A DNA stretch of 22,104 nucleotides, from the IMG/VR virus record IMGVR_UViG_3300010885_039334, positions 1 to 22,104 of that record; one strand, written 5' to 3'. The notes beneath the pieces were generated by a model. That model was given only the letters and a program-made list of their open reading frames with translations, made no database searches and was not told where the DNA came from. Below, one piece after another: positions 1 to 22,104 of the stretch. This stretch comes from a virus. A program made the translations under genes and the position numbers. The stretch's first letter is position 1. Each line of letters opens with the position of its first letter.

Positions 1-296
1 ATATGCCTGGAAAATTACCTGGAGAAGAAAGTTTTGATTCATTAAAATTTGGTGTTCCGATTAATGTTGCTATCATACATCCAGAAGATTGCTATATGAC
101 CCTAGAAGGGTTTGGTGTTGTGCCTTGGAAAGAAGGAAAAGCCTTTATAATAAACATCAGACATTATCATAGTGTAATAAATTTCTCAAATAAATCTAGA
201 ATACATCTAATTGCTCATGGAAAATTGAATCAAAAAACTGATGAATTTGTAGAATTAATAGCAAGAAGTTATCACAAGCAATATGAACGTAATTGA
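1..296 (+). CDS. Asp/Asn beta-hydroxylase-like 2OG-Fe(II) oxygenase, C-terminal part
   Basis: This is the 3' end of a gene that is open to the left window edge. An in-frame ATG lies at position 3, but the first metal ligands expected upstream of it (HxD) are missing, so the real start is probably outside the window. The visible 97 residues form the second half of a jelly-roll oxygenase domain. The distal iron-ligand histidine is in HYHSVIN (H56), followed ten residues later by R66 in SRIHLIAHG, the arginine that anchors 2-oxoglutarate in aspartyl/asparaginyl hydroxylase-like enzymes. The stop overlaps the next gene by 14 bp, so the two are probably co-translated. The substrate cannot be told. 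The H-x9-R spacing matches the oxygenase at 11909-12580, but the two proteins are otherwise different. Confidence 0.6.
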   Translation, partial: MPGKLPGEESFDSLKFGVPINVAIIHPEDCYMTLEGFGVVPWKEGKAFIINIRHYHSVINFSNKSRIHLIAHGKLNQKTDEFVELIARSYHKQYERN

Positions 297-1518
297 GTTT
301 AAAGTTCCTGACGAAAAAAATCTAGTATTTTGTATGGTTGATACTTTCAACACATTTAAAGAAAACTGGATTAAAGAATTAATTAAAAATCAATCCGATT
401 ATACTATTAGTAATTTATATAGTAAAAAATATACTATATTACAGGGATTAGACGAAGATGATCTAATAAAATATGCTTCTAAAAGATATGATTATGCTTG
501 TGTGTTTAGCACTGGAACTGAATTTATAAATGGTGATGCTTTCTTTAAGAATATAGAATTGGAATGTACCGATGATTTTCTTATTAAAGGACATATATTA
601 GATAGAGATGATGCATATTATGAACTACATCACCAATGTTATCTTATTAATCTAAAAAATTACAGATTTTTAAACTTTCCTCTTATTGGAAAACAAGAGT
701 TAGCAACACTGCATGTACAATTAGATCCTATACGATCAAAAGAAAACTTACACGATACATATACACCTCTTTGGATTAAACAAGGAAACTCATATAGAAA
801 TTATAATCATAAATGTCATGGATGGAATATAATTTCTAAATCTCTAGAGTATTTTGATATCATTGCGTTTAATACAGAGATAAGAGATAGTAAGAAACAC
901 CTGTATCCTGAAAGTACATTAGATTTTTATAAACAAATAAATTATGTATATTTTAAGGAAAAATACTGTAGTGATACATTTATACATACTAAAAATACAG
1001 AGAATATGATTTTTTCTCTAAAAGACATTAAGCAAATTGTAACTCCAGCAAGTGGAGAATGGTATATTAATGATATAAATCAAGAAAATAATTTAAAAAT
1101 TATAATCTATGATTACAATTTAAATAGTTTAAAATATTGGGAAAATAATATTACTAAATTATTAAATATTGATTATCAATTTATCCAATGTGATTTGTTA
1201 AATGATTCGTTACCATTATGTTTAAAATTAGATAGAGAATTAGAAAAATTTACTTTAATAAATTTAAGTAACATTTTTTGTTATGAAGGAACTTCTACTT
1301 TATCTAATACCAAATATCGTATGTATAAAGAAAATCAAATACTATCATACTTAAAAGAACATTTTCCTAATTCTTATATCTTTTTTTCAATAAGGGCAAG
1401 TTCTGGATTTATACATCATGAGGAAGTTCCTGTAAAAATTAAAGATATTCCTCAATATGATATAAAAGATCTAAAGAAACCAACATGGCATCAAAATGAA
1501 GATTGGTTATCCTTTTAA
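283..1518 (+). CDS. Two-part protein: glycosyltransferase-like N-terminus, methyltransferase-like C-terminus
   Basis: I do not recognise this 411-residue family with certainty. The N-terminal ~220 residues contain a segment reading GHILDR, then YYELHHQCYLINL, a pattern reminiscent of glycosyltransferase-type (GT-A) proteins of marine phages. No clear DxD metal site is visible. From about residue 245 a Rossmann-like methyltransferase layout can be traced: ASGEWYI where the glycine loop would be, an acidic strand end (IIIYDYN), QCDLLND, and LINLSNIFCYEG in the motif IV position. There is no signal peptide or membrane segment. The start ATG lies inside the preceding oxygenase gene (14-bp overlap). 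The 3' end overlaps the oppositely oriented radical SAM gene by 12 bp. Its likely role is sugar or methyl transfer on whatever the surrounding enzymes modify; that is inference. Confidence is high that the gene is real and low on function. Confidence 0.45.
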   Translation: MNVIEFKVPDEKNLVFCMVDTFNTFKENWIKELIKNQSDYTISNLYSKKYTILQGLDEDDLIKYASKRYDYACVFSTGTEFINGDAFFKNIELECTDDFLIKGHILDRDDAYYELHHQCYLINLKNYRFLNFPLIGKQELATLHVQLDPIRSKENLHDTYTPLWIKQGNSYRNYNHKCHGWNIISKSLEYFDIIAFNTEIRDSKKHLYPESTLDFYKQINYVYFKEKYCSDTFIHTKNTENMIFSLKDIKQIVTPASGEWYINDINQENNLKIIIYDYNLNSLKYWENNITKLLNIDYQFIQCDLLNDSLPLCLKLDRELEKFTLINLSNIFCYEGTSTLSNTKYRMYKENQILSYLKEHFPNSYIFFSIRASSGFIHHEEVPVKIKDIPQYDIKDLKKPTWHQNEDWLSF

Positions 1519-2667
1519 TTTATTAATTTCTTCTATAAAGAAATCTCTGCTTTTTTCTAATGATGTTTTAGAGATATAAGTGTCAATAAATTTTTCTAAT
1601 AATGGATTTAATCCTATAAATTCTTCTTTACGAATATCGTTTAATTTATTATGAAAATTTAAAAAATGATCGAAATGATCTAACCCATCTTCTTTTAAGT
1701 AATTTTGTATGCTCGTATTTTCTATATTTTCTATAAGAATTTCTTTATATTGTTTTGGTAAATTTTTTATGTTTAGAAAAACCGGATATTGAACTATCTG
1801 ATAATTATAACTAAATCTAGGATATTTTTCTTTTATAAACATTTCTAATTTACGATATACATTAACATTATAAACCGATAATGCCGAATGTATTTTAATA
1901 TCTGTGTCTTTATTATTTCTCTTTTTAATTAATTCAGTATAATAAGATAAATTTTCTTCAATTTGATCAAAATTAGAATTTGATCTAATGAAATTATTTA
2001 AATCTCCATGAGCATCAATACTGATATTTAAATCTAAAGATTTACAATTTTGAAAAGCATAATTGACATTATCTTTTGGTAAAACTGTACCGTTGGTGCT
2101 AAGTTCAATGCGTAAATTATCAATTTTATTAATAGAAATTATTTTTTTAAAAAATAAATCAGATTCGTTACCAAAAAGTGGTTCTCCGCCATATATTTTT
2201 ACTAGTTCTAATTCTGACAAATCTAAATCATTATATAACGTATTTCTATTATATTTTTCTTCACTGAGTGTTGTACCATATAATTCTTTTTCTTCTTCAA
2301 ACCATAAATGACTATAAGGGCTTGCACACATTCGACATTTTAAATTACATACATTATTAAAAAATAATTCGACTAGTTTTAACTTTCCAAAATTTTGATA
2401 TCCAAATTGTTCAATCATTATCTGACGCATAGATGTTAATCCTAATTTTTCCTCAACATGGCATTGACATCCGCTATCAATCTCGTTATTCAACATCTTT
2501 TTTCTCATATTACACATATGATCATTATTTCGTATGGTATCTATAGATTGTATTTCTTTAAAAGGAGTCATATTCATGTACTGTCCACATGGTAATACTT
2601 TACTATCAGGTTGTAAACTAGCACCTATAAACGGATATGGACAATATGTTTTAGAACTAATCGACAT
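1507..2667 (-). CDS. Radical SAM protein with N-terminal twitch domain
   Basis: The 386 residues start with a half-SPASM (twitch) cysteine domain: C9 in YCPYPF, C27 in VLPCGQY and a CQCH motif at 67-70. This domain should bind an auxiliary Fe-S cluster. The radical SAM core follows, with C107-x3-C111-x2-C114 (NVCNLKCRMC) for the SAM-binding 4Fe-4S cluster, GGEP at 160-163, and STNGT and NISIDAHG strands. The C-terminus carries HFLNFHNKLNDIR, shared with the paralogue at 3144-4322, and the two align end to end. The auxiliary site is atypical: one Cys replaces the usual CC pair, and the last pair is CxC rather than CxxC. The start ATG overlaps the upstream oxygenase stop by 11 bp, and a CAGG-like site lies upstream. 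Such enzymes start radical chemistry from SAM; substrate unknown. Confidence 0.85.
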   Translation of the reverse strand: MSISSKTYCPYPFIGASLQPDSKVLPCGQYMNMTPFKEIQSIDTIRNNDHMCNMRKKMLNNEIDSGCQCHVEEKLGLTSMRQIMIEQFGYQNFGKLKLVELFFNNVCNLKCRMCASPYSHLWFEEEKELYGTTLSEEKYNRNTLYNDLDLSELELVKIYGGEPLFGNESDLFFKKIISINKIDNLRIELSTNGTVLPKDNVNYAFQNCKSLDLNISIDAHGDLNNFIRSNSNFDQIEENLSYYTELIKKRNNKDTDIKIHSALSVYNVNVYRKLEMFIKEKYPRFSYNYQIVQYPVFLNIKNLPKQYKEILIENIENTSIQNYLKEDGLDHFDHFLNFHNKLNDIRKEEFIGLNPLLEKFIDTYISKTSLEKSRDFFIEEINKLKG

Positions 2668-3157
2668 ATTCAGTAACCTGTAAAATTATTCTTGGAGTAT
2701 GACTTATATTAGCGGCACCATGAAGATCTGTTGATAGATTGTATTCATATACATCGCCTGCTTTATAATTGTCTATCATTTTGTCTTTGTAAATAAAAAT
2801 GTGACCAGGTATATAATCAGTTAATGGTATCCAATATCGAATACAAGACATATCATGTGTATGCGGATCCGAATGCATTGGCATAAATTGACCTGGATAC
2901 AATTTTGTTATCCACCAATGTATTTTACCCTTAGTCCATGGTGGAATTAATTCTATATCTAAATCTTGTTTTTCATAAACCCACCAATGTACTGCTGTAA
3001 GATCATATCCTGCTTCTTTGGCATGTTTATATTCATCCGATTCAACAACATATGCTGGATCCCAGTCTCTAGGCCTTGCTTGTCCTTGTTTAGATAAAAC
3101 TAAATTGATCCAATTTGGATGAATCCAATTAAAATAGTTACCTTTATAAATCATCAC
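2657..3157 (-). CDS. Small 2OG-Fe(II) oxygenase
   Basis: This 166-residue protein is a compact double-stranded beta-helix oxygenase. The iron triad is visible: H95-x-D97 in PGQFMPMHSDPH and the distal H146 in TDLHGAANISHTPR. R156, ten residues on, is the expected 2-oxoglutarate carboxylate anchor. The strand GHIFIYKD between them is shared with the tandem oxygenases at 10126-11237. There are two possible starts, ATGATG; the first (3157) is used here. It overlaps the upstream radical SAM stop by 14 bp and the downstream radical SAM start by 11 bp, so it sits tightly between two paralogous twitch radical SAM genes and probably acts in the same pathway. It would hydroxylate or desaturate a peptide, sugar or other acceptor in the cytoplasm. 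The exact substrate cannot be inferred. Confidence 0.75.
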   Translation of the reverse strand: MMIYKGNYFNWIHPNWINLVLSKQGQARPRDWDPAYVVESDEYKHAKEAGYDLTAVHWWVYEKQDLDIELIPPWTKGKIHWWITKLYPGQFMPMHSDPHTHDMSCIRYWIPLTDYIPGHIFIYKDKMIDNYKAGDVYEYNLSTDLHGAANISHTPRIILQVTEYVD

Positions 3158-4322
3158 TAGTAAGCATATCCATTTGTTGAATAAAAAAATCTTTACTATC
3201 GATTAATTTATTTTGTTGTTTGTATTGAGAGATAAAATCTTCTAAAAGTTGATTTTTGTCCCCTAACATTTCGTTCCTTATATTGTTTAATCCTTCATGA
3301 AAATTAATAAAATGTCCAAATAAATCCTCTCCTGGCATATCTAATAAATTTAATAGATGCTTATAGTTATTTCCATATCCAACAATAATAGGTCGAATTA
3401 TATCTTTTAATTTGTTAGGTATATGTCTAATACACATATGAGATGGATACTCTAAAGGTTTTATTACAGGAATTATTTTAGGATACTTATTTAAAAAATT
3501 TTCAATTTCTTTTAACTTGTTAATGTTATAGACACTAACAGTGATAATTGCTCCCAATCTAATATTAGGATTATTTTTAAATCGATTATAGAAATAATTT
3601 AAATTATTTTCTATAATTTTAAATTTTGATCCACTACGAAAGTAATCGTTTAACTCACCAACACCGTCAATACTAATAGTAAATTCTAAAAAATTACATT
3701 CAGTTAATATGTTTAATATATAATCAGATGGAATAATAGTACAATTTGTTATACAGGATAAGTTAACTTTTTTAATATCACTGTTTTTATAAAGATTAAT
3801 TAAAAATTCTTCACATCTTTTACTTAAAAACAATTCTCCACCTTCTAAATGAATTTTTTTAATGTTTTCGTAATTAATATTTTTATAGATATCATTGTAA
3901 TTATATTTTTTATCTACAAATGATTTTCCGTAAAGTTTTATTTCATCAGCCATCCATAGATGACTGTTTCCGCTAGTGCAGCCTCTACATTTAAGATTAC
4001 ATAAATTATCAAAAAAAACTTTTATCTCTGTTAAATTTATATCCGTAGTAAACCCATATTCTCTTATTAGATTATCTCTTTCAGAATTTAAACCAATGTT
4101 TTTATTAGAATCACACTGTTTACAATTTGGAATAGTTTCTCCGTTTAACATTTTTTTTCGAATATTTTTAAATGTTGTTGAGTGTAAGATATCATTTTGA
4201 TTATTATAATCAACATCTGATTCGCGTATCTCATTATTCCACCAACAACAAGGAGCTACTCTTCCAGAAGAGATACTCAATGATTTCCAAGGTGCTGGAC
4301 AATATGACAAAGGGATTTCCAT
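3144..4322 (-). CDS. Radical SAM protein with N-terminal twitch domain, variant GGEL
   Basis: At 392 residues, this is the paralogue of the radical SAM gene at 1507-2667. The N-terminal twitch domain has a full cysteine set: C8 (YCPAPW), C25-C26 (APCCWW), C67 and C70 (NCKQC). The core motif is C108-x3-C112-x2-C115 (NLCNLKCRGC). The next motif is GGEL at 161-164 instead of GGEP, and the strand that normally reads STNGT reads CITNCT, so an extra pair of cysteines sits near the active site. FTISIDGVGELNDYFRSGS and HFINFHEGLNNIRN are typical of the family. The start ATG directly follows the TAA of the upstream oxygenase (adjacent codons, no gap). The cysteine-rich variation suggests a substrate different from that of its sister enzyme; this is inference. 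Confidence 0.83.
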   Translation of the reverse strand: MEIPLSYCPAPWKSLSISSGRVAPCCWWNNEIRESDVDYNNQNDILHSTTFKNIRKKMLNGETIPNCKQCDSNKNIGLNSERDNLIREYGFTTDINLTEIKVFFDNLCNLKCRGCTSGNSHLWMADEIKLYGKSFVDKKYNYNDIYKNINYENIKKIHLEGGELFLSKRCEEFLINLYKNSDIKKVNLSCITNCTIIPSDYILNILTECNFLEFTISIDGVGELNDYFRSGSKFKIIENNLNYFYNRFKNNPNIRLGAIITVSVYNINKLKEIENFLNKYPKIIPVIKPLEYPSHMCIRHIPNKLKDIIRPIIVGYGNNYKHLLNLLDMPGEDLFGHFINFHEGLNNIRNEMLGDKNQLLEDFISQYKQQNKLIDSKDFFIQQMDMLTSDDL

Positions 4323-5135
4323 TTAATAACTACCTAAATGATCGATACCAATTTTTTTACGAAAAGTATCTGTAAATTTACAATCTATCCTGAGCCCATA
4401 TTCAACTTCAGCTGATGATTCTCCGCCGTGCCAGTCTTGATCATTCCAAAAAGCAGCATGGCAATTTATATAATGTTTATCTTCTGTTTTCGGATCCCAT
4501 ATATAGAAACCTCGTTTAGTACGGTATCTTATATGTATGAATTCATTTTTATGTTCCGTATACCCTTGTTCATCACCACCATTCTTAGCATCTAGATCTC
4601 TATGTTCAAATGCTTTACCATTATGATCGCAATGAAAAAATATAACTCTACCAATTTGATCTATTACGTCTTGCTTTACTAAATTTTCAACCCAACTAAC
4701 AACACCTTTAAAAAATTTAGACTCTTCGGTCTTATATCTTTCAGAGTTTCTTTGATTCCAATCTCCTTGATCCCATAAAAAATAATAGATATAAGGATCG
4801 TTGGCTCCCATTGTTACTTTTAAATATCTAGTGAATATATTTCTATTTTTAAAATTTGATAAATCTGTAAGATATAAAGGATCGCCCGCTTGCCGAATAG
4901 GATGAGTTTTAGGTAATTCTAGATATTCCTGCACTGCCTTATATATAGGTTTCCAATTGATTATATAACTAGCGTCATCCCATTTAAATCCTGGAGACAT
5001 CCAAGTTCCTTCTTTGGCATAATCTCTAGCTAGAGAAAATCCTCGTGCTATCTCAGGATGCAATTTACAAAATCCATCAATATCTAGATAGGGATCTAAA
5101 TTTATATAAGGCAATCCGCCAATACCTTTAATCAT
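4323..5135 (-). CDS. 2OG-Fe(II) oxygenase-like protein
   Basis: From ATG 5135 this is a 270-residue protein; an in-frame TTG at 5150 would add five residues but has no better ribosome site. Counting from the ATG, iron ligands are recognisable as H178-x-D180 (AFEHRDLD) and H236 (DWHGGESS), with R249 (YGLRID) as the likely 2-oxoglutarate anchor. The strands EFIHIRYRTKRGFYIW and NCHAAFWND fit the jelly-roll core. The N-terminal ~150 residues (including PYIYYFLWDQGDWNQ) are an extension I do not recognise. The gene opens run B, abuts the downstream radical SAM gene with no gap, and is divergent from the gene at 5162, only 26 bp away. It may be an aspartyl/asparaginyl hydroxylase-type enzyme with an unusual N-terminal domain; substrate unknown. 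Confidence 0.6.
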   Translation of the reverse strand: MIKGIGGLPYINLDPYLDIDGFCKLHPEIARGFSLARDYAKEGTWMSPGFKWDDASYIINWKPIYKAVQEYLELPKTHPIRQAGDPLYLTDLSNFKNRNIFTRYLKVTMGANDPYIYYFLWDQGDWNQRNSERYKTEESKFFKGVVSWVENLVKQDVIDQIGRVIFFHCDHNGKAFEHRDLDAKNGGDEQGYTEHKNEFIHIRYRTKRGFYIWDPKTEDKHYINCHAAFWNDQDWHGGESSAEVEYGLRIDCKFTDTFRKKIGIDHLGSY

Positions 5136-5161
5136 ATACGTACTTATCAATTAAATATCTC
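5136..5161. promoter_or_regulatory. Divergent start region, no visible Shine-Dalgarno on either side
   Basis: Two genes start head to head within 26 bp, so both transcription signals must lie here or inside the opposite gene. On the + strand TTAAATA (5151-5157) sits four bases before the ATG. It resembles the TATAAATA late promoter -10 of T4-like phages but is not exact. On the - strand TTGATAAG precedes the ATG. No AGGAG-like sequence is present for either gene. In DNA this AT-rich such matches arise by chance. Confidence 0.25.
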
Positions 5162-5854
5162 ATGCCAAATTTTGAATACTATTATAATATTGTGCCCGGC
5201 AAAGGACTTTGTCGTAATAATTTAATCTATACAAGCCTAATAAGTTTAGATAAAAAAGTATTCTGCCAATGGTATCAAAACGATACAGATTACCATAAAG
5301 GCCAAAATCAGATAGTAGATCCAACTTTAATGGAAGAGAAATGGAACAAAGAAATTGAGTTCTTAACTCTAATGGTAAAAAATTATCCAGAGCATGTTCC
5401 TAATGTTATAGAAATCGATCATAGAAATAGGAAGATTTTTTTAGATATCGATGGAGTTGATTTTTGGCAATCTGCCGATCCAATCAAACAAGACTACGAT
5501 AATATCTTACCGGATTGGCAAAAGCAGATGCTAGAAATAATACAATCACATAAAAATCTAGGAATTTACAAATATTCAATGCATCCGAGTAGTTATTTTG
5601 TTGTTAACGGAAAATTAAAGAGTATCAATTATTTCTTTTGTTATACTGAAGATATGCCATTAATATCATTAAAATCTGTTTTAAGTCATATAAGTGAGGA
5701 TAGACAAAAGGATCTTTTTCCTAAAATGATAGCATCTGGGATTGATTTAGAAAGATCTACACCATTTAAAGATATACAAATTTTAGCATTTGAAAGTTTT
5801 AAAACTAATTTTCCTTCAGAAGTAATGGAGGAGGCAAAGAAAATATATGTTTAA
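5162..5854 (+). CDS. Degenerate kinase-like protein
   Basis: The 230-residue product is a distant paralogue of the protein at 11230-11916. The layout follows a small phosphotransferase/kinase fold: a strand ending VFCQWY, a helix with a conserved acid (KWNKEIEFL), VIEIDHRNRKIFLDIDG as the strand-hinge region, then IYKYSMHPSSYFVV where the catalytic loop would sit and LKSINYFF where DFG would sit. Key residues are missing: the catalytic Asp of the loop is absent and the DFG Asp is Asn. If the fold call is right it is a pseudokinase or has been repurposed. The start ATG at 5162 has no clear Shine-Dalgarno. Its last 8 bases overlap the next gene (ATGTTTAA). The kinase fold is an inference from motif spacing and needs a profile or structure check. 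Confidence 0.4.
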   Translation: MPNFEYYYNIVPGKGLCRNNLIYTSLISLDKKVFCQWYQNDTDYHKGQNQIVDPTLMEEKWNKEIEFLTLMVKNYPEHVPNVIEIDHRNRKIFLDIDGVDFWQSADPIKQDYDNILPDWQKQMLEIIQSHKNLGIYKYSMHPSSYFVVNGKLKSINYFFCYTEDMPLISLKSVLSHISEDRQKDLFPKMIASGIDLERSTPFKDIQILAFESFKTNFPSEVMEEAKKIYV

Positions 5855-6407
5855 TCTAATCGAGTGGAATGAAAATTTAGATTTAGATGAATTCTATAAA
5901 GAAGCAGATAAAAGAGGTTTCGTTAATAATTCTAGTCAAAAAAATATGATAGATTGCTTCCAAAACGAACGAGAGTGGAATGCTTGGATATTATACGAAA
6001 ACAACAAACCTATAGGAGCAGTAGCAGCACACTCCTTTGACGATGTTATGGGTAATAATAGTTATAGGATACTAACTCGGGTATGTACGTTTGGTGAATA
6101 CTCTTTAAATAAAGGATTAATTACACCTAAACGTCTTGTAGGAGAACATCAAAATCTAACCGATCAATTCTTACTTCCAAAATGTATAGAATGGGTAGGT
6201 AATCGAGGTAGGATGTTTGCTACCTCAAATGCTAGTAAGGAAGCAAGCCAAAGACTTGTACATAGTTATTATTTTCCCACACTTGCTAAATTAGGAATCG
6301 TATCCAAAATTAAAGACATATACTATCGATCAACAGATCAAACAGTATGGGAAATACATCCTGATAATTTCTATAGAAATTTACAACGTTATCCTAGATG
6401 GATCTAA
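5847..6407 (+). CDS. GNAT-like acyltransferase protein
   Basis: The 186-residue protein has the outline of a GNAT N-acyltransferase: a central strand AWILYENNKPIGAVAAHSF, which in GNATs brings substrate and acetyl-CoA together, followed by a basic and glycine-containing stretch and the helix SKEASQRLVHSYYF. The acetyl-CoA loop (Q/RxxGxG/A) is not clear, so the assignment is tentative. Translation is likely strong: GGAGGAGG (5827-5834) lies 12 bases before the ATG, inside the preceding kinase-like gene, which it overlaps by 8 bp. It is the second and last gene of its short run and overlaps the SDR gene on the other strand tail to tail by 27 bp. A role in N- or O-acylation of the pathway product would fit; not demonstrated. 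Confidence 0.4.
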   Translation: MFNLIEWNENLDLDEFYKEADKRGFVNNSSQKNMIDCFQNEREWNAWILYENNKPIGAVAAHSFDDVMGNNSYRILTRVCTFGEYSLNKGLITPKRLVGEHQNLTDQFLLPKCIEWVGNRGRMFATSNASKEASQRLVHSYYFPTLAKLGIVSKIKDIYYRSTDQTVWEIHPDNFYRNLQRYPRWI

Positions 6408-6980
6408 GTTAGGGTTGATGCGTTTCAATTCAGATTGAACAAAAGGTGTTAACTTCCATCTAAATTCAATATTTCTTATTGAAGGTTTTTGGGCCCAAAA
6501 AATAATCGTATCAACTATATCATCGCAACTTGTTGTGTAATCACTAGTAAACGATGTTGGATTATTCGTGTCAACGCTTGTGTTTTCTATAAAACCAAGA
6601 TCTAAATGCAACAACGGAATTCCTTTTGGATTTAAACTTATTAAACGGCAAGCTTCTGCTAATTCTTGTTTATCGTGTACATAATCTGTAGGTATCAATT
6701 CAGGATAAAATCGACTCACTGATCCCATAACTACCATCATATCTACCTTTTCTTTTAATGCTTCAACTAATTTCAATTGTTGTCTGTCACGATACGCATT
6801 ATTAATGAATATTTCAGCACCAGATGCTTCTTCAACGATCTTATCGAAATTTTTTTCTAAATCATAACCATTGCTGCGACTCATTCCTACTATTTCTCTA
6901 CAACTTATCTCTGTAAATTTATCATATATTGCTTTACCAATACCTGACGTGTGTCCTGTAATAACTATCTTCTTATTCAT
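6381..6980 (-). CDS. Short-chain dehydrogenase/reductase (SDR)
   Basis: The 199 residues form a compact SDR-type Rossmann domain. The nucleotide-binding loop is TGHTSGIG (8-15), NNAYRD (from 60) replaces the usual NNAG, GSVSR (86-90) supplies the catalytic Ser, and Y100-x3-K104 (YVHDK) is the catalytic pair. All active-site elements are therefore present, so it is probably an active NAD(P)H-dependent reductase or dehydrogenase. It is shorter than typical SDRs (~250 residues). Its ATG overlaps the upstream SDR stop by 8 bp (ATGAATAA), and it is the last gene of run D, overlapping the GNAT-like gene tail to tail. A ketone or hydroxyl group, possibly on a sugar, is a plausible substrate, acting after the oxygenases or radical enzymes; that is inference. 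Confidence 0.8.
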   Translation of the reverse strand: MNKKIVITGHTSGIGKAIYDKFTEISCREIVGMSRSNGYDLEKNFDKIVEEASGAEIFINNAYRDRQQLKLVEALKEKVDMMVVMGSVSRFYPELIPTDYVHDKQELAEACRLISLNPKGIPLLHLDLGFIENTSVDTNNPTSFTSDYTTSCDDIVDTIIFWAQKPSIRNIEFRWKLTPFVQSELKRINPNLDPSRITL

Positions 6981-7434: not shown

Positions 7435-7438
7435 TAAA

Positions 7439-9052: not shown

Positions 9053-9089
9053 AATTTTAAACCTCTTGTATTTATTATAATAAAAAATC
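9053..9089 (-). promoter_or_regulatory. Candidate internal promoter and ribosome binding site
   Basis: This 37-bp gap separates the CSD/P4H fusion gene from the long radical SAM gene. Reading on the minus strand it holds TATAAT (9079-9074), a perfect sigma70-type -10 that overlaps AATAAATA, close to a T4-type late promoter, and then AGAGG (9066-9062) before the ATG at 9052. No convincing -35 box is seen. It may allow separate expression of the radical SAM and two SDR genes. Confidence 0.35.
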
Positions 9090-10121: not shown

Positions 10122-10125
10122 TATT

Positions 10126-12580: not shown

Positions 12581-12632
12581 ATTTATAGAGCAAATATTTG
12601 TTTGGTTATAAAAAGATATAGTAAATATCATT
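12581..12632. promoter_or_regulatory. Divergent promoter region between runs D and E
   Basis: This 52-bp segment is the longest non-coding stretch in the window and separates two divergent runs. On the minus strand TATAAATA (12587-12580) is an exact match to the T4 late promoter -10 consensus, but it overlaps the ATG of the oxygenase gene, so a transcript from it would be leaderless or start downstream. On the plus strand TATAGT (12617-12622) lies ten bases before the ATG of the PP-loop gene. Neither gene has an obvious Shine-Dalgarno. The matches are short and the region is nearly all A/T. Confidence 0.35.
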
Positions 12633-14598: not shown

Positions 14599-15490
14599 AG
14601 TTCAAAGCCGCTGGCCACATCAAAATACAATTAAGATAGAATGGAATCTAGGCAAACGCTGTAATCTAGATTGCGCCTATTGTCCAGAATATATCCACGA
14701 TAATCACAGTGCGCACACAGACATAGAAGTACTTAAACGCACAGTGGCGTGTTTAAACGCATTAGGTAAGCCTGTGCGTCTAAGTCTAACAGGAGGTGAG
14801 CCTAGTGTACATCCCCAGATAGAAGAACTATTAGAAGCTATAAATGCTGCTGATAATATAGTTTGGTTAAGCATGACTACAAATGCTACACGGACAGGAA
14901 AATGGTATGTAGATCAATCAAGATATATTGATCAATATGTTTTTAGTTTACACTATGAGAAGAATAGTAAAACATCATTTGAACACATTATAGCATTTCA
15001 TTCTGCTAAAACTGATACGAAAATATTAGTCCATATTATGGCACATCACAAATATATGGATGAAGTAAAAGATGGAGTGTTTTCTTGTAAGGCATTAGAA
15101 ATTCCTTATGTTATTCGAAGAATACGTTGGACAGAAGGTAATCATGATTTATTCGATGATATGAGATACAATCATCATGATCTTCAATGGATTAAAAGAT
15201 CTACTAAAACAGCAGAACCAAATTGTATAATTGATGATAATGAACTATTACATGCTAACGATATAATCAAATCTCACATGAATCAGTTTAACGGATGGTC
15301 TTGTAATGCTGGTATAGAAAGTCTAATGATTAATTGGGATGGAGAAGTACATAGAGCAACTTGTAGAGTTGGAGGAAGTTTAGGAAATATATATGATAAT
15401 AATTTTATAGTTCCTGAAGATCCTATTACGTGTACTAGGAACTGGTGTACCTGTGAGTCAGATATCCCTTTAAGTAAAATTAATATATAA
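14591..15490 (+). CDS. SPASM-type radical SAM protein, mosaic base composition
   Basis: The 299 residues start directly with the radical SAM core: C24-x3-C28-x2-C31 (KRCNLDCAYC), GGEP at 68-71 and MTTNAT. A C-terminal auxiliary-cluster region begins at GWSCNAG (C238), followed by C258 (ATCRVGG), C281, C286 and C288 (CTRNWCTC), so it should carry one or two extra Fe-S clusters as in SPASM enzymes. It shares this end (GWxC...) with the products of 15480-16505 and 19489-20487. The first ~210 bp after the start are clearly richer in G+C than the rest (see findings). The ATG overlaps the twitch radical SAM stop by 8 bp, and the 3' end overlaps the opposite gene by 11 bp. SPASM enzymes often modify peptides, but some act on small molecules; substrate unknown. 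Confidence 0.85.
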   Translation: MYKVQSRWPHQNTIKIEWNLGKRCNLDCAYCPEYIHDNHSAHTDIEVLKRTVACLNALGKPVRLSLTGGEPSVHPQIEELLEAINAADNIVWLSMTTNATRTGKWYVDQSRYIDQYVFSLHYEKNSKTSFEHIIAFHSAKTDTKILVHIMAHHKYMDEVKDGVFSCKALEIPYVIRRIRWTEGNHDLFDDMRYNHHDLQWIKRSTKTAEPNCIIDDNELLHANDIIKSHMNQFNGWSCNAGIESLMINWDGEVHRATCRVGGSLGNIYDNNFIVPEDPITCTRNWCTCESDIPLSKINI

Positions 15491-16505
15491 TCTTTTCTTT
15501 ATTCTCATGTGTCTCTGGCATACAAAAACATGATGTATTAGGACAAATAACTTGTTTTAATTCAGGTTTAAAATTTTCTTTAAAATTTTCATCTAAGATA
15601 CTGAAATAGTAATCTAATCCATACAATTTAGCATCACATGACCCTGTTAACTTTCCTTTCCAATTAATGTATATTCTATCTAGTCCTATCGAACAGTTCC
15701 ATCCTTTAAAATTATTACATTCATTATTAATATAGGTTCCAGGTCTAGCATATATTTTTTTTCCGTTACTAAGGATTGCGGTACTTTCCCATAAACGTAA
15801 ATCTTTAATAAGACTTCTATTTTTCCAAAACCAAGAAACATTAGGAATTCGTTTTAAATCCTTTTCTAAAAAAGACATTTGTTCATCAGTATATAACGGA
15901 ACAGTAATTTCGGTATCATTAACAATATGTTTTTGCTGTTCTATTACTTTAGCTAACATTATAAACCAAGGATACTTACTATTGGTTTTCATATAATTAA
16001 TATCTTCTATACCTTTATCCCAGTATAACGGATCCATAAGAATTTTAACTGTTGTTTTAACATTTTTTTCATATAATATATCGGCTACATTTGTTATATG
16101 TTCTACATTACCTTGATCTATATGATGTGTTAAATGAGCATTGTCAATATCGTGACCGTATTTCTCCCACCACCTTAATGTCCTAGATCCGTTCGATACT
16201 AACGTAAAATATACATCGTGATCTTTTTTAATTTCTTCAATAACATACCCTAGTTCTTTTATTAAAGTTGGTTCTCCACCAGCCATAAAAAAAGAAAATC
16301 TTGTTTTTCCTAAATTAGTTTTATAATAATCCATAAGGCATTTTAAATTATCTATAATTTTATTAGAATCTTTAGGGTACTTATGAGTACCATCATTACT
16401 TCCTGGATAACAATATCGACATTTAAAATTACAATAGTTTGAAGGATCCCATTGTATGTCCAATAATTCTTTAGGTCTACGAGAAACTATTTTAATTGGA
16501 ATCAT
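15480..16505 (-). CDS. SPASM-type radical SAM protein
   Basis: The 341-residue protein has C25-x3-C29-x2-C32 (NYCNFKCRYC), AGGEPT with GGEP at 76-79, and LVSNGSR. The auxiliary region starts at GWNCSIG with C271, then C290 (GSCDAK), C321, C326 and C328 (CPNTSCFC). The C-terminal cysteine pattern is nearly the same as in the product of 14591-15490, which lies on the other strand and overlaps it tail to tail by 11 bp. The two are therefore related copies arranged back to back. Its ATG overlaps the upstream twitch radical SAM stop by ATGA. It is the last gene of run F. Fe-S chemistry is confident; the reaction is not. Confidence 0.85.
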   Translation of the reverse strand: MIPIKIVSRRPKELLDIQWDPSNYCNFKCRYCYPGSNDGTHKYPKDSNKIIDNLKCLMDYYKTNLGKTRFSFFMAGGEPTLIKELGYVIEEIKKDHDVYFTLVSNGSRTLRWWEKYGHDIDNAHLTHHIDQGNVEHITNVADILYEKNVKTTVKILMDPLYWDKGIEDINYMKTNSKYPWFIMLAKVIEQQKHIVNDTEITVPLYTDEQMSFLEKDLKRIPNVSWFWKNRSLIKDLRLWESTAILSNGKKIYARPGTYINNECNNFKGWNCSIGLDRIYINWKGKLTGSCDAKLYGLDYYFSILDENFKENFKPELKQVICPNTSCFCMPETHENKEKIIY

Positions 16506-17911
16506 AATAAATGCCTTAATTCTGGAAATATTTTTGAAGAATCTAAATTCCTAATATTATCTAATTTATTGATATATTCTTTAAATCCTGGTAATAGATA
16601 ACTGTTATCATTTGAATCCATATGTTTTAAAACTGCTTCCCATCGTTTCCATCCGTAAGGATTTATTTTCCAAAAATCATCATCTTGTCTATAATTATTC
16701 CAAAGCCAATCTTTAAACTCTCTAAATATTTCATGTACTTCTATCTTGTCTTCTTTTGCTAATATTTGTATACTTAAAAATGTCGGAATGTAAAGAAGAT
16801 GCATATTAATTAACCCACCTCCCATTTGTACATTATATGACGATTCTCCTAGATTTATTTTTTTAAATTTTGAGTTAACTTTCCATTTAATAAAATCAGG
16901 TAAATGTTTAATATTAAGTATCTGTATAGCAGTAGCAATGCTAACTTGAATATTATCAGGTGTGTTATCTAACATTTTTAAATTTTTCTCAACTATATCC
17001 CATTTAGTTGGATATCGAATATACTCATCTCTCTCATAACAAGCGTCCATGCTAACAGCAAATTTTACTTTCTTAAATTTACTCCATAGCCTTATAAGAT
17101 CATTATCTACCAATAGCCCATTTGAATTATATCTTAATAATATCTGATCTTGATATCCTTGTCTAATTATCTCTTCAATAAATGTTTTATGTTCATTGAT
17201 CATTAACGGTTCGCCGCCAGCAAAGTAGACTTGTTTTAAATTAGGAACTTGTTTATTCATTTCTTTCCAAAATGTATACTTTTCATGCCATTTATTATTA
17301 AAACTTTTTCTATCCCATCTCATCTGATCAGACACATCTTTATTTTCTAATAACGGCATTAATTTCTTATGATCACTAACCCATTGGCTCGAATCGTGAG
17401 GGGAACACATGACACATTTAATATTACAGGTATGCCCTAATCTTAAATCTAGATAAACTAATTTTTCCGGTATAGTTCCGTCGATATTTGTTTTCTCTAT
17501 AAGATTAGGAATATCAATTCCGTCTTTATGCCATGTCATAGTTTCCCAAATTCGTTTACTAACTACTCCGTTTTTTTCTTCTTCAAAACATTTTGTACAA
17601 CTAACAGGTATTTGATTATTAATCATAGTTTTTCTTACAGATTTCATATAAGAATTATTCCATGCTTGCATCGGAGTTTCTCGACCAAAATTAGCAGGAG
17701 TACCGTCTTCCATTTTAACCAACCCTACTTCATGATTTTTTCCTGCGCCGCTAGCATTAGCACTACAGCAAAGTCTCATATCACCATTTGGTCTTGTAGC
17801 AAAATGAATCCAGGGCAAAACACAGTAAGTTGAAGATGACGAAACTTCTTCTATCTCTCTTTGATATTTCCCAATCTCTGTATTTTTATTATTATACCAT
17901 TCTCGATCCAT
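16502..17911 (-). CDS. Radical SAM protein with N-terminal twitch domain (longest copy)
   Basis: At 469 residues this is the largest of the four twitch enzymes. A polar N-terminal tail of ~28 residues precedes the twitch cysteines C30 (TYCVLPW), C48-C49 (RLCCSA), C105 and C108 (SCTKC). The core motif is C162-x3-C166-x2-C169 (HTCNIKCVMC), GGEP is at 232-235 (YFAGGEPL), followed by NSNG and AVSMDA. The ~60-residue insertion between core motifs, rich in Trp and Lys, is shared in position with the product of 13333-14598. The C-terminus INKLDNIRN is the family signature. AGGA lies upstream of the ATG. An 8-bp gap separates it from the preceding SPASM gene and an ATGA overlap joins it to the next, so the three radical enzymes should be made together. 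Confidence 0.86.
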   Translation of the reverse strand: MDREWYNNKNTEIGKYQREIEEVSSSSTYCVLPWIHFATRPNGDMRLCCSANASGAGKNHEVGLVKMEDGTPANFGRETPMQAWNNSYMKSVRKTMINNQIPVSCTKCFEEEKNGVVSKRIWETMTWHKDGIDIPNLIEKTNIDGTIPEKLVYLDLRLGHTCNIKCVMCSPHDSSQWVSDHKKLMPLLENKDVSDQMRWDRKSFNNKWHEKYTFWKEMNKQVPNLKQVYFAGGEPLMINEHKTFIEEIIRQGYQDQILLRYNSNGLLVDNDLIRLWSKFKKVKFAVSMDACYERDEYIRYPTKWDIVEKNLKMLDNTPDNIQVSIATAIQILNIKHLPDFIKWKVNSKFKKINLGESSYNVQMGGGLINMHLLYIPTFLSIQILAKEDKIEVHEIFREFKDWLWNNYRQDDDFWKINPYGWKRWEAVLKHMDSNDNSYLLPGFKEYINKLDNIRNLDSSKIFPELRHLL

Positions 17912-17919
17912 GTGATGTC

Positions 17920-18900
17920 CTAAAATTGTAAATTAAACTTATCTATTTTACCGCATTGCTTACTGCATTCTAATAATGGTTTAGATTGCCATGTATCTGA
18001 TACTTTATCAAATATTTTATTTTTAAAAATATCCAATAAATTATGAGTTTTTAATGATAAAAAATTAATATCTCTATCTGTTATATCTATCTTAGATTTA
18101 TGCATCGGATACATGGAATGTGTATCTAACCAACAACAGGGAATAACATATCCTTGTGAATTAACATATATACTTTTATCTTTTAATACTTTACAATTTA
18201 TTTCTCTATTTAAAGAAATATCGTAATTATCTAATGTTTTTTTAAGATAATCACTTTTATCCGAAGGATATATATTATGACTTGTTTTTCCTTCTTTAGT
18301 TAATACAGTTAAAACATTTTCTCTAAATCTAGAAGTATGTTTAGCATTAAAATTTTTAAATCCTAATTTTTCAGATAATAATTTACACTCTTCAATTTGA
18401 TGTTTATTATGATCAAAAACTAACATATCCCATATTGCATTGCCGCCTGCATTAATAAAAGCAGAAGCATTTTCAATTATTTTTTTCCAATCTGTGCCAA
18501 CTCTATAAAGACTATGTGTATCTAATAGTCCATCAATACCAAAACGAACATCAATATCTAATTTTGCTAGATCTATCCACCAATCTTCATTACGAGCACT
18601 ACCATTAGTATTCATTCCAAGTTTAATATTATTGTTAGATTGACGAATATATTGAAAAATTTCTAAAGTATCTTTAGCAATAATTGGGTCTCCGGTATTA
18701 CCGCACATATAGATCCTATCTAGATCCTTTAATATTTCAACACTAAACCATTTTTTAAATTTTTCTAAAGTAATTTCATCAAGAACTATCCAGGGATTAT
18801 CAACCCCTCCTTGTATATTTCTAGAACACATTGGACAACTTGCTTGGCAACGGCTAGTTACTTCTAAATGGACTGTTTTAATATATTCTAAATTATACAT
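17920..18900 (-). CDS. Radical SAM/SPASM protein with CGNTGDP motif
   Basis: ATG 18900 is preferred over the in-frame TTG at 18915, since it gives the recurrent 8-bp overlap (ATGTATAA) with the methyltransferase gene and leaves the family start intact; the product is 326 residues. The core has C18-x3-C22-x2-C25 (SRCQASCPMC). In place of GGEP it has MCGNTGDPII, a known variant in SPASM-type enzymes. Then MNTNGSARN and IDGL follow. The SPASM end has C236 (INCKVL), C255-C256 (IPCCWLDT), C312 and C316 (ECSKQCG). It belongs to a different branch from the other radical enzymes here. It ends with TAG, eight bases before the longest twitch gene. Confidence 0.86.
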   Translation of the reverse strand: MYNLEYIKTVHLEVTSRCQASCPMCSRNIQGGVDNPWIVLDEITLEKFKKWFSVEILKDLDRIYMCGNTGDPIIAKDTLEIFQYIRQSNNNIKLGMNTNGSARNEDWWIDLAKLDIDVRFGIDGLLDTHSLYRVGTDWKKIIENASAFINAGGNAIWDMLVFDHNKHQIEECKLLSEKLGFKNFNAKHTSRFRENVLTVLTKEGKTSHNIYPSDKSDYLKKTLDNYDISLNREINCKVLKDKSIYVNSQGYVIPCCWLDTHSMYPMHKSKIDITDRDINFLSLKTHNLLDIFKNKIFDKVSDTWQSKPLLECSKQCGKIDKFNLQF

Positions 18901-19504
18901 TGTTTTTAAATCCAATTAACATAAATCTATTGTATTTGGGTAATTCTAATATTGATTTAGAAAGAACTTTTATTTTACTTTGAATTTCAAACTCTTCTAT
19001 GTTATTAACACATCGTATATGCTCATCTAATTCAAAATAATCATTACTTTGTAATACAATAAGAGATTCTTTTGGAATGTTTTCTAACCATCTATTATAT
19101 GTATCCTGTGTAACATGCTCACAACTTGTATTAATTACTATGTCTGGAAAAAAATCATATTGATATTTGTCCATGCTACAAGTAATTGCATTAAATTTTC
19201 CGGACATATCTTCAATCTTATTCATTGTTCTTGATATTTCTTTACATACTGGATCAATATCAATAGATACAATTTTATTTGTTTGTATAGTAGATTGAAA
19301 TATTAAACTTGCTAATACACCATTCCACCCGCCATGTATTACTATATTATTGTCTATAGAAGTAACATGCCCCATTAATTCGTTAATTAACCAGAGTTTA
19401 CTTTTAATTTGACCTTTCCAGAAACTTTCTAGTGTACGAGTATTGTCGTTGCTATTACGTATAGCATCCATCCAAAATAAAATATGATCTATATCAATTT
19501 GCAT
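18893..19504 (-). CDS. Class I SAM-dependent methyltransferase
   Basis: The 203 residues form a short Rossmann methyltransferase. Motif I is IVIHGGWNGVLAS (G58, G59, G62), the acidic end of strand 2 is VSIDIDP (D82/D84, binding SAM ribose), and DIVINTSCEHV (121-131) fills the motif IV place. No target-recognition domain is present. The acceptor is unknown; the NTSCEH motif does not match DNA-methylase DPPY/NPPY signatures, so DNA methylation is unlikely. It overlaps the upstream SPASM radical SAM gene by 16 bp and the downstream one by 8 bp, and so sits translationally locked between two radical enzymes. It probably caps a hydroxyl, amine or carboxylate made in the same pathway; inference. 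Confidence 0.78.
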   Translation of the reverse strand: MQIDIDHILFWMDAIRNSNDNTRTLESFWKGQIKSKLWLINELMGHVTSIDNNIVIHGGWNGVLASLIFQSTIQTNKIVSIDIDPVCKEISRTMNKIEDMSGKFNAITCSMDKYQYDFFPDIVINTSCEHVTQDTYNRWLENIPKESLIVLQSNDYFELDEHIRCVNNIEEFEIQSKIKVLSKSILELPKYNRFMLIGFKNNV

Positions 19505-20487
19505 TTAGGTATCTTACTATCAGCCGAACTTATACAACTATTAGTTATACAAATTCTAGATCGATCAAATAAAGTAAATCCGGTTTCTAATGTTCCTAAT
19601 AAGTCATCATGACAACTATAAGATCTCTTAACTTCATTTCCTCGTATTATTAAACTCTGATATCCACTGTTGCATTTCCATCCTTTAAATTTATTAAATC
19701 CATAAGAATTAAATCTCTCTGCTTGATCAAAATCATATGTGTTTCCATTAGAATCTTTTAATTCAATTTGATAAATTGCGTTTTGTTTAATATGCTGCGG
19801 AAACCCTGTCTGCATAATGTCTATCATTTCTTTTGTATATCCATTAACTATTTCAGTAGCTGTATCATTACTTTGAGGTTTTAATGTTACAGGTATACCT
19901 AGATTATGAAATCGTTTACAACGATTATAATATTCATAAAATCTATTAGGAACCATTACTTGATTAATAGTTACAAATATTTGATTTTCTATTAGAAATA
20001 AAAGTTTTTCACTAAATTCTGTTTCGTTAGCAAACTCTGCATGAAAACTTGCCGTAACACTTGCTCTATCTAAAAGTGATAATTTACCAACTAATCTTTT
20101 CCACCATTTTAATCCCGGACTACAATTACTAGTCATATGAAAACTTTGATATTTAGGTTCAATATCACTAGAATAATGATCTATTAGATTTAAAAAATCT
20201 TTATAAGCAGTTGGTTCTCCGCCGCTAAAACTAAAATGAAAATCTGTAAATCCATTTTGCCTAGCCTGTCTTTTTATTTCATCAATAGTTTTTTTATAAA
20301 GATCAATATCATAATGATCAACCTTATCACTACGAGCATAGGGCCAACAATATGAACAATTATAATTACAAAATCTTCCTAATATCCAACTAACAGAAAA
20401 TAAAGGATTGTCTAACATAGTTTTTTGACCAAAACTAGTTATATCATCCCAAGGTATATTTTGGAAATTAGAGTTTGTTAAATTCAT
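19489..20487 (-). CDS. SPASM-type radical SAM protein
   Basis: At 332 residues it carries C40-x3-C44-x2-C47 (RFCNYNCSYC), SGGEPT with GGEP at 89-92, and MTSNCS, where Cys replaces the usual Gly of STNG. The auxiliary part begins GWKCNSG (C272), then C292 (SYSCHDD), C313 and C318 (CITNSC) and C329. The CxC seen at the end of the related products of 14591-16505 is absent, so the last cluster may have a different ligand set. The upstream ~30 residues are a short extension. The gene overlaps the repeat/glycosyltransferase-like gene by 20 bp and the methyltransferase gene by 16 bp, the longest same-strand overlaps in run F. It is likely the first radical step after the glycosyltransferase-like protein, if gene order reflects pathway order. 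Confidence 0.84.
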   Translation of the reverse strand: MNLTNSNFQNIPWDDITSFGQKTMLDNPLFSVSWILGRFCNYNCSYCWPYARSDKVDHYDIDLYKKTIDEIKRQARQNGFTDFHFSFSGGEPTAYKDFLNLIDHYSSDIEPKYQSFHMTSNCSPGLKWWKRLVGKLSLLDRASVTASFHAEFANETEFSEKLLFLIENQIFVTINQVMVPNRFYEYYNRCKRFHNLGIPVTLKPQSNDTATEIVNGYTKEMIDIMQTGFPQHIKQNAIYQIELKDSNGNTYDFDQAERFNSYGFNKFKGWKCNSGYQSLIIRGNEVKRSYSCHDDLLGTLETGFTLFDRSRICITNSCISSADSKIPKCKLI

Positions 20488-22104
20488 TATTCAACCAATC
20501 CCAATCATTAATCTTAGCTAACATTGATTTATTATCATAGTTTGTTAATCCAAATGTTTTGCCCATTAAAGCACCCTTAATAGAATATTCACCATAAGGT
20601 TTATCAGCCCCAATTCTACACCAAACACCTAATCTCTTTTCTGTTTCATCATCAATTTGACTGTCAATTACTTTACTTGACATTTTAACACATTCTCTAA
20701 AGGCACTCTTCCATGTATTAAAAGGATCAGTATTGAATACAGTTAAATTACTAATACCATCCATAGGATTAAATTTCTTACTAATAGACGTAGACATATC
20801 AACTGTTGAGGTATCTAGTTCTAAAGTGAGTTTCTTTGGAAATAGTTTAACACCGCCATATCCATATACTAAGTCATTAACTGGATTTTTACTCTTCCAC
20901 ACAAATACAGAATCTTTATCCCAGGGATTAACTACGTAATCTAAATTAAAATCCTCTACTATTTGTGAATCACCATCAACTACCCAAAACATTGAAGTAG
21001 TAGATATTCTAGCTGCTTGTATATGAGCGTTGTGAATACCTTCAATACCGTGTACTCTTTTAGCTTGTGGGAATCTACTTTTTAGATTTATCCAGTTATC
21101 TTCTGCATTTGGTTCTTTATAAGATATAAAAATTATATCATAAGTTTCTTCAAATAAATGTTCGTCCATTTCTTTCTTATTGATAAAAAATAAATTATCA
21201 GCTTCTTTTTTAGCAATAGGATATGTTTTTGGAATAAGATTTAATCTAGAATGAATAGTATTTGAAGCATTCCATTGATGTACATATTCCTTGTCATAAT
21301 CAGGTACAATATATGTTAAATCTTGTAGCAATTTAGAATCACTATTTAATACCCAGAACATAGATGTAGTTGATTGGAATGAAGTGATACGATCATATAT
21401 AATATCATCAGTATTTAATTCCAATATATCATATCCAACTTTAGAGAGCTTATCATTTATTTCTTTCTTGTTAATAAAGAATAAAGTTTTAGATTCTCTC
21501 TTTGAGATAGGATATTTTTTTGGTATTAAGAATAGATTTGGTGTTTCGTGATTAATTGGTTTCCATTGATGTACGTATTCTTTATCATAATCAGGTACTA
21601 CATAATTCAATTCAGTTAACAACTTACACTCAGGTGCTAATACCCAGAACATAGAGGTTGTTGATTGGAATGAAGTGATGCGATCATACACATCGTCATC
21701 GAATGACAATTGTATTTTATCATAAACAACTTTAGATATTTGTTCGTCCATTTCTTTCTTATTAATGAAGAACAAACTCTTTGCTTCTCTATTAGTAATT
21801 GGATAATGTTTTGGTATTAAAAATAGATTTGGTGTTTCATGATTAATTGGTTTCCACTGGTGTACATAATCCTTATCATACTCCGGTACTAGATATATTA
21901 GATCAGTTAATAATTTACACTCAGGTGCTAATACCCAGAACATAGAGGTTGTTGATTGGAATAACATGATACATTCATATACATTATCATCAATTTTAAG
22001 TTGTAAGATATCATATCCAATTTTAGAAATCTTATCATCCATTTCTTTCTTACTGATAAAAAATAGATGATCTGCTTCTTTCTTTGTAACAGGATAATCT
22101 TTTG
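20468..22104 (-). CDS. Tandem-repeat protein ending in a glycosyltransferase-like domain (5' partial)
   Basis: The frame is open to the right window edge: the last 62 bases continue in frame with sequence like the end of another repeat, so the ATG at 22042 is internal and the protein is longer than seen. Counting from that ATG, residues 1-291 are three gapless 97-residue repeats. Residues 292-524 form a larger GT-A-like domain: YDIIFISYKEPNAEDNW, STTSMFWVVDGDS with a DxD-type D356-G-D358, VYGYGGVKLFPK, SNLTVFNTDPFNTW and SAFREC. The repeats look like shortened copies of this domain: they keep STTSMFWV but have APEC or NSDS in the DxD place, so they cannot bind sugar-nucleotide metal the same way. 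It leads run F as seen. Likely activity: glycosyl transfer by the last domain only, with the repeats serving as a scaffold; inference. Confidence 0.65.
   Translation of the reverse strand, partial: KDYPVTKKEADHLFFISKKEMDDKISKIGYDILQLKIDDNVYECIMLFQSTTSMFWVLAPECKLLTDLIYLVPEYDKDYVHQWKPINHETPNLFLIPKHYPITNREAKSLFFINKKEMDEQISKVVYDKIQLSFDDDVYDRITSFQSTTSMFWVLAPECKLLTELNYVVPDYDKEYVHQWKPINHETPNLFLIPKKYPISKRESKTLFFINKKEINDKLSKVGYDILELNTDDIIYDRITSFQSTTSMFWVLNSDSKLLQDLTYIVPDYDKEYVHQWNASNTIHSRLNLIPKTYPIAKKEADNLFFINKKEMDEHLFEETYDIIFISYKEPNAEDNWINLKSRFPQAKRVHGIEGIHNAHIQAARISTTSMFWVVDGDSQIVEDFNLDYVVNPWDKDSVFVWKSKNPVNDLVYGYGGVKLFPKKLTLELDTSTVDMSTSISKKFNPMDGISNLTVFNTDPFNTWKSAFRECVKMSSKVIDSQIDDETEKRLGVWCRIGADKPYGEYSIKGALMGKTFGLTNYDNKSMLAKINDWDWLNNEFNKL
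21170..22104 (-). repeat. Tandem 291-bp coding repeats (three full units plus a partial unit)
   Basis: Full units lie at 22042-21752, 21751-21461 and 21460-21170, with the end of another at 22104-22043. The period is exactly 291 bp (97 codons), confirmed at the DNA level: a stretch of about 48 bases beginning at 21624 is repeated without change 291 bases on at 21915. Unit 1 and unit 2 are the most alike; unit 3 has diverged in the middle (NSDS for APEC, NASNTIHS for KPINHETP). The next unit, from 21169, is the larger glycosyltransferase-like domain. The array probably grew by recent unequal exchange and continues past the window. Confidence 0.9.

Follow-up and report, generated by a model that had tools for sequence, protein, structure and literature searches.

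A candidate glycan-tailoring island rich in radical SAM enzymes and Fe(II)/2OG-type oxygenases at a host-recognition locus of T4-superfamily phages

The IMG/VR virus fragment IMGVR_UViG_3300010885_039334 (22,104 bp, about 28% GC; "the window" denotes this whole stretch) carries 25 tightly packed genes, g01 to g25, most of which overlap and whose widest intergenic gap is 37 nt. Nine of them encode radical S-adenosylmethionine (rSAM) enzymes and seven encode Fe(II)/2-oxoglutarate (2OG)-type oxygenases. The remaining genes encode two short-chain dehydrogenase (SDR)-like proteins, two kinase-like proteins, a GNAT-like protein, a QueC-like PP-loop protein, a methyltransferase-like protein, the unknown protein g02 and a "repeat protein", g25. 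An earlier note on this DNA had made the same count and had seen in it a modification system; the count is right, the metal-binding motifs are intact in all of these enzymes and, as described below, part of the cluster recurs as a conserved core in many related phages. Scans of the 22,104-bp window for tRNAs and Rfam RNAs revealed no tRNA and no known RNA, and a hydrophobic-segment check of all window proteins found no membrane segment. Among 50,697 phage records, no match was obtained by megablast of the window or by tblastn of g17, g18, g24, the g25 domain and F22, a gene family found beside related islands.

All nine rSAM genes match PF04055 and carry the CxxxCxxC motif, eight of them over the curated cut-off; the exception is g05 (ORF 3144; 3144..4322, minus strand), with 24-26 bits against a cut-off of 29.5. 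Four are of the N-twitch type, passing the 170-bit cut-off of the NCBIfam model NF033640 (N_Twi_rSAM) with 218-369 bits: g05 itself (218 bits), g03 (1507..2667, minus; 224 bits), g18 (13288..14598, plus; 319 bits) and g21 (16502..17911, minus; 369 bits). The others are g11 (7439..9052, minus), of the B12-binding type (PF04055, 1.9e-17; TIGR04072, 1.9e-16, under cut-off), g19 (14591..15490, plus; PF04055, 2.6e-12), g20 (15480..16505, minus; 7.3e-13), g24 (19489..20487, minus; 6.4e-13) and the rSAM/SPASM gene g22 (17920..18915, minus; PF04055, 2.1e-9; SPASM, 1e-4). Wherever families could be built, the rSAM motif was kept in all near-full-length relatives, from 3/3 to 57/57. PDB sequence profiles gave nothing usable for g21 and only generic rSAM enzymes for g24. 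Prokaryotic viperin was considered and rejected, with scores of at most 48.7 bits against the NF038283 cut-off of 180 and PADLOC matches that were partial and at superfamily level only.

Two of the 2OG-type genes pass Pfam cut-offs. The first, g12 (9090..10121, minus), joins a cold-shock domain (1.5e-9) to a prolyl-4-hydroxylase-like oxygenase (2OG-FeII_Oxy_3, 1.5e-10). The second, g01 (1..296, plus), is the 3′ part of an aspartyl/asparaginyl-hydroxylase-like gene (Asp_Arg_Hydrox, PF05118, 7.3e-7) whose 5′ end lies beyond the window and whose full-length relative matches PF05118 at 9e-12. The small g04 (2657..3157, minus; H95, D97 and H146 conserved) matches the same family weakly (0.03) and is a paralogue of g13 and g14. 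No Pfam match was obtained for g06 (4323..5150, minus; H183, D185 and H241 conserved in 28 sequences), g13 (10126..10671, minus; small, with H108, D110 and H165), g14 (10668..11252, minus; 37% identical to g13, with H117, D119 and H174) or g16 (11909..12700, minus; H122, D124 and H166 in 46 sequences), yet their HxD...H motif is kept in at least 90% of relatives. From such motifs or, for g12 and g01, from their Pfam matches, all seven are predicted to act as Fe(II)/2OG-type oxygenases. The g12 fusion of a nucleic-acid-binding domain and an oxygenase is unusual and occurs in 5 of 61 related groups. An LpxO-type lipid A hydroxylase was also tried as an identity and rejected, since the PF05118 genes of relatives score 21 bits against the NF033391 cut-off of 500.

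These related groups were obtained by scanning IMG/VR with g21 and g17, which gave 139 loci and, together with ten long contigs, 61 dereplicated groups. In this set, g22 and g23 (18893..19504, minus) are present in 59 groups each, g24 and g21 in 57, g19 in 54, g18 in 50, g17 (12633..13340, plus) and g16 in 47, g20 in 39 and g25 (20468..22102, minus; 5′ end beyond the window) in 36, counts that are partly ascertained because g17 or g21 served to retrieve the loci. The order of these core genes is strongly conserved across groups, with a few recurring rearrangements. The lowest-divergence pairs give dN/dS values of 0.10-0.18 for g19-g24 (for instance, 0.10 for g21, 0.11 for g19, 0.12 for g24 and 0.13 for g20), which is what would be expected of genes under purifying selection. 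Genes g01-g15 form an exchangeable shell, from g15 (32/61), g06 (30/61) and g08 (28/61), through g02 (17/61, mostly paired with g01), down to the rare g03, g05, g10 and g12, kept in 3-5 of the 61 groups (3/61 for g03 and g05). The proposal of a modification system is supported, and its genes have a conserved neighbourhood, with g16-g24 recurring together in the 61 groups. The earlier note had also considered that the relatives might be scattered singly, with no conserved neighbourhood; the conserved core, the intact motifs and the low dN/dS speak against such a scatter. Its idea of one elaborate pathway is not supported, since only about ten genes (g16-g25) make up the recurrent core, the other fifteen are exchangeable and the place is filled differently elsewhere.

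The carriers are T4-superfamily (gp23) phages of a very large, uncultured group. The largest relative is a contig of 357,559 bp with 27 tRNAs and a T4 gp23 capsid gene (4.7e-83), and its 13 rSAM genes all lie at 167.6-189.4 kb; such packing of 13 out of 13 into 21.8 kb exceeds chance. In the long relatives, the island sits in one slot between tail-fibre and receptor-binding genes. On one border, 9 of the 10 long contigs have the order F24, F18, three F19 genes, F20, F21 and two F22 genes, followed by the island; F24 is a very large VrlC-like protein, F19 resembles the N-termini of tail fibres from jumbo phages of the T4 superfamily (Atu_ph07 and PA5oct, for example), and the F22 pair is glycosyltransferase-like with a DxD-type motif. 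The other border is F00-F05-F08-F14-F13-F12 in all seven long contigs that reach it, some members being missing individually, and F00 matches Mtd_N, the N-terminal domain of the major tropism determinant, over the cut-off.

Because the core counts were partly ascertained by the g17 and g21 searches, the flanking structural genes F12 or F18 were used as independent seeds, and 48 contigs were obtained. In 44 of them rSAM genes were found, in most cases several and up to 16 per contig. Among the 43 contigs tested further, a relative of g23 is present in 38, and strong matches to g24 (E < 1e-130) and g17 (E < 1e-50) occur in 19 and 8, respectively. Elsewhere in the lineage, other rSAM sets occupy this slot. 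Given these counts, a slot without many rSAM genes is a rarity, g23 is near universal and the core of the window is one among several fillings.

As to expression, T4-type late promoter motifs (NATAAATA within 80 nt ahead of a gene) precede F18 in 9 of 9 cases, F00 in 7/7, F48 in 5/5, F19 in 9/28 and F20 in 5/13. The motif was found ahead of none of 27 F21/F22 genes, and ahead of 17 of 258 island genes against 12 of 258 in the antisense control, so that the island genes examined have no late promoters of their own. As overlapping genes run from the tail-fibre operon into the island, these observations suggest that the island would be expressed by read-through of late tail-gene transcripts, co-transcription being a prediction from gene layout.

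Several core and shell genes could act in group transfer. An AlphaFold2 model of the C-terminal domain of g25 (approximately 20471-21166; pLDDT 90.5) adopts a glycosyltransferase GT-A fold; Foldseek retrieved 29 solved structures at E <= 0.001, all of them glycosyltransferases apart from one sugar nucleotidyltransferase, whose fold is related. In 20 relatives the DxD aspartates do not vary, and PDB sequence profiles of this domain and of g23 gave nothing usable. By fold and DxD, g25 is thus predicted to be a GT-A enzyme, and the "repeat protein" that had been put forward as a candidate substrate looks enzyme-like and is not an obvious substrate. Degenerate partial GT-A copies without DxD occupy 21167-22102, ahead of the catalytic-type domain, and most g25 relatives are single-domain versions. 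In g17, which has a four-Cys C-terminus, the motifs SGGxDS, RCWKTRPWQ and CGKCFWC are invariant or almost so among relatives; the protein is a QueC-like PP-loop ATP pyrophosphatase (PHROG, 4e-7; weak PP-loop matches only in a PDB sequence profile). A QueC/7-deazaguanine (queuosine) pathway was rejected, as g17 scores 14.4 bits against a cut-off of 22 and no QueD, QueE or FolE is present in the window. The class-I methyltransferase-like g23 is the most widespread island gene, and its relative in the Pelagibacter phage Mosig is annotated as "putative methyltransferase".

The earlier calls of SDR, PP-loop and kinase-like folds hold, while the GNAT call for g08 (5847..6407, plus), for which a Pfam search gave no match, was made by eye. 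The SDR-like g09 (6381..6980, minus) matches adh_short at 1.8e-4, under the cut-off, and g10 (6973..7434, minus) is its truncated paralogue (31.7% identity). The kinase-like g07 (5162..5854, plus) was modelled at pLDDT 93 and retrieved kinases in Foldseek, with WbdD at rank 8, but it lacks the usual catalytic aspartates: by eye, HRD reads HPS and the Asp of DFG reads Asn, and S139, H141, P142, S144 and N156 are conserved. It is probably a pseudokinase or a divergent transferase. Its paralogue g15 (11230..11916, minus; 1e-10) retains an IDW motif, not HRD, and it is possible, judging from these residues, that both are pseudokinases. The 411-aa protein g02 (283..1518, plus) has no assigned function.

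The locus recalls the host-recognition cluster (HRC) of pelagimyophages, including the Pelagibacter phage Mosig EXVC030M (MT647606), a region described as hypervariable that lies between VrlC and tail fibres, contains glycosyltransferases and is distinguished by its rSAM cassettes (PMC7029224). If the HRC is defined by a position between the VrlC/tail-fibre module and the receptor-binding genes, the long relatives that reach the borders fit it, with one partial exception, and the window stops short of them. The Mosig island, between tail fibres and VrlC, encodes Asp/Asn hydroxylases, MoaA-like enzymes, an ArnB-type aminotransferase, an epimerase and a carbamoyltransferase, and shares g22-, g20- and g23-like genes with the window. 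By contrast, Mosig has two PF04055 matches, compared with nine in the 22-kb window, and no match to the PP-loop/N-twitch core.

Clues to the substrate come mainly from relatives. The absence of nucleotide-sugar genes that had been noted holds for the window and fails for related islands, which add a nucleotide-sugar dehydrogenase, an epimerase/dehydratase (nearest to LegB/RmlB models, under their cut-offs), DegT and class-III aminotransferases, and SGNH-hydrolase-like and amidinotransferase-like genes. In a set of 78 bacterial loci with relatives of g21, one such relative lies inside a Wzm/Wzt/GT2 cluster of Ca. Jettenia, and a g21-g24-g22-g21 cluster of an Oligoflexia genome adjoins DegT and GT2 genes. 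Several larger relatives carry Fe-S supply genes: of 34 contigs, 6 encode an IscA-type protein, 3 an IscU-type protein and 2 a ferredoxin. The tenth long contig, for instance, has an IscU-type gene, two IscA-type genes and a ferredoxin (at 27.0, 43.8 and 48.3-49.7 kb). Their presence in rSAM-rich phages fits an earlier report on one marine phage (PMC5332604). Taken together, the nucleotide-sugar genes, the Mosig island, the bacterial homologues in glycan clusters and the Fe-S genes favour a sugar or glycan, the most likely substrate; the target would be either the tail fibres or the surface of the host.

On balance, and with slightly more belief than doubt, we regard the window as the interior of a late-expressed, hypervariable glycan-tailoring island that T4-superfamily phages, including many jumbo phages, carry in their host-recognition region and that would alter the surface where phage and host make contact. 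At the level of sequence, this is supported by the gene content, the metal motifs, the core and its purifying selection, the locus in relatives, the lack of late promoters in the island, the lack of membrane proteins in the window and the GT-A fold model. Co-transcription with the tail genes, the sugar substrate, the order of steps, the target and the purpose are what we infer from these. Its soluble enzymes would form a cytosolic tailoring line: demanding C-H chemistry would fall to the rSAM enzymes and hydroxylation to the 2OG oxygenases, g17 (PP-loop) would use ATP to activate an acid or hydroxyl, methyl- and acyltransferases would attach small groups and the GT-A enzyme g25 would attach the product. 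The contact surface would then change, either because the phage decorates its own tail fibres or because a glycan of the host surface is altered.

Some observations weigh against this interpretation. The case is built from genes, with product and substrate predicted, and the window reaches neither flank, its position in the slot being deduced from relatives. In the tenth long contig, which has the window's gene order g01-g24 without g03, g05 and g11, thyX and further genes come after the cluster, and a tail-fibre operon is about 9 kb off; genes resembling F13, F14, F08 and F05 by eye lie at its far end. The TM-scores of the g25 model against solved structures are modest (0.31-0.47), and recognisable glycan genes lie near only a minority of the 78 bacterial loci (raw count). 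Finally, an island in this position, at the 3′ end of tail operons, could simply mark a site where the insertion of unrelated cargo is tolerated.

Between the two targets, we lean to tail fibres because of the position, the late read-through and the lack of membrane proteins, with the host surface close behind. It is possible, albeit tentatively, that a lineage-wide, novel rSAM/2OG pathway rewrites the phage's own tail fibres, by glycan or side-chain changes, and is diversified by cassette swaps at a site flanked by the fibre operon and the gene for receptor binding; in that case, host recognition would be diversified chemically instead of by sequence. Equally tentative is the proposal that the island remodels the O-antigen or capsule sugar of the infected cell, masking receptors, excluding superinfection or keeping progeny from adhering to debris, and leaves the tail fibres untouched. 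The bacterial homologues in O-antigen/ABC-transporter clusters and the nucleotide-sugar genes of relatives agree with it, as do the PagP annotated a few kb from rSAM genes in Vibrio phage K566 and the role proposed for the HRC glycosyltransferases of pelagimyophages (PMC7029224). However, no membrane protein is found in the window or in the islands of two relatives (none of the 33 island proteins of the 357-kb phage has a membrane segment), unlike known O-antigen conversion modules, and, without late promoters of its own, the island is probably expressed along with the tail genes late in infection. Such conversion modules use membrane proteins, and an identity of the gtr/oac type (membrane-bound flippase, glycosyltransferase or acetyltransferase) was rejected for the window, whose proteins have no membrane segment.

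It is rather unlikely that the rSAM and 2OG enzymes modify tail-fibre side chains directly, through hydroxylation, cross-links, C-methylation or epimerisation, with no sugar involved. SPASM/twitch-type rSAM enzymes frequently act on peptides, the window has PF05118 Asp/Asn-hydroxylase and prolyl-hydroxylase-like members and the island prolongs arrays of tail-fibre genes, but enzymes of nucleotide-sugar metabolism and a number of GT-A-like genes are found repeatedly in the islands, and no recurrent substrate motif was found in the fibres, although no search aimed at one was made. Less likely still is a mere storage zone, an insertion hotspot behind tail operons that gathers unrelated metabolic cargo: the shell varies strongly among relatives and the region has been called hypervariable (PMC7029224), but the core g16-g24 in similar order across 61 groups, its purifying selection and the rSAM genes, mostly several, in 44 of the 48 contigs found through flanking genes contradict it. 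A cluster for a ribosomally synthesised and modified peptide, which the combination of rSAM/SPASM enzymes and 2OG hydroxylases resembles by enzyme type, is hardly credible, since, with gaps of at most 37 nt, a precursor could not be accommodated between the called genes and, as had been noted before, the window has no precursor ORF or exporter, nor a protease.

Phages rich in rSAM genes have already been noticed, in 2010, 2017 and 2020. The T4-like Campylobacter phages CP220 and CPt10 encode 11-12 rSAM proteins and have an interchangeable module of five rSAM genes, for which a metabolic advantage for the host was proposed (PMC2853527). CP220 resembles the islands in its amidinotransferase (homologue of F04, 9e-58), its nucleotide-sugar transferase-like genes and the tail-fibre genes downstream, and both phages differ from them in their rSAM subfamilies, with no 2OG-rich shell seen and no PP-loop core. 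A CP220-type module of rSAM genes plus amidinotransferase was rejected for the window, which has no amidinotransferase; F04 is present in 13 of the 61 groups. The Agrobacterium phage Atu_ph07 (NC_042013) has VrlC-like F24, F18 and F19, followed on the same strand by the rSAM genes gp165, gp168 and gp171 and the rSAM-like gp164; it has no more than about four rSAM genes, whose relationship to those of the window is weak, and no glycosyltransferase-like or 2OG gene was recognised there. A 183-kb T4-like marine phage, TARA_ERS488813_N000010, which has an Fe-S carrier gene besides its 12 rSAM genes, was reported in 2017 under Fe-S metabolism, in an account whose accessible part does not describe locus or core (PMC5332604). 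In the searchable literature, outside which lie most subscription papers and all preprints, nothing was found on rSAM-modified tail fibres, and the conservation of the PP-loop/N-twitch core, the island's constant location between tail-fibre and Mtd-like genes and its near-universality in the lineage appear to be new.

Phage rSAM genes, hitherto listed as auxiliary metabolism or Fe-S curiosities, are here a conserved feature of a host-recognition locus throughout a lineage (44 of 48 contigs). A long-standing puzzle, the chemistry of the contact surface of these phages and whether it sets host range or excludes competitors, becomes testable, and the islands point to many radical enzymes that await characterisation, some of which may act on sugars. 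Miniature islands exist in the cultured phages Mosig, Atu_ph07 (at the same locus) and CP220, and Mosig and Atu_ph07 would allow direct study. The cultured jumbo phage K566 mentioned above has a run of N-twitch-like rSAM genes at 16-23 kb, with the annotated PagP lipid A acyltransferase at 25.9 kb. Two GTDB contigs assigned to a "Thermoplasmata" archaeon and to "Rhodobacteraceae" appear, from a 72% identity to g21 and the presence of tail-fibre genes, to be misbinned phage sequence and were excluded from the bacterial evidence. Arrays of several N-twitch-type rSAM genes each are also present in genomes of Bacteriovoracaceae, Bdellovibrionales and Elusimicrobia.

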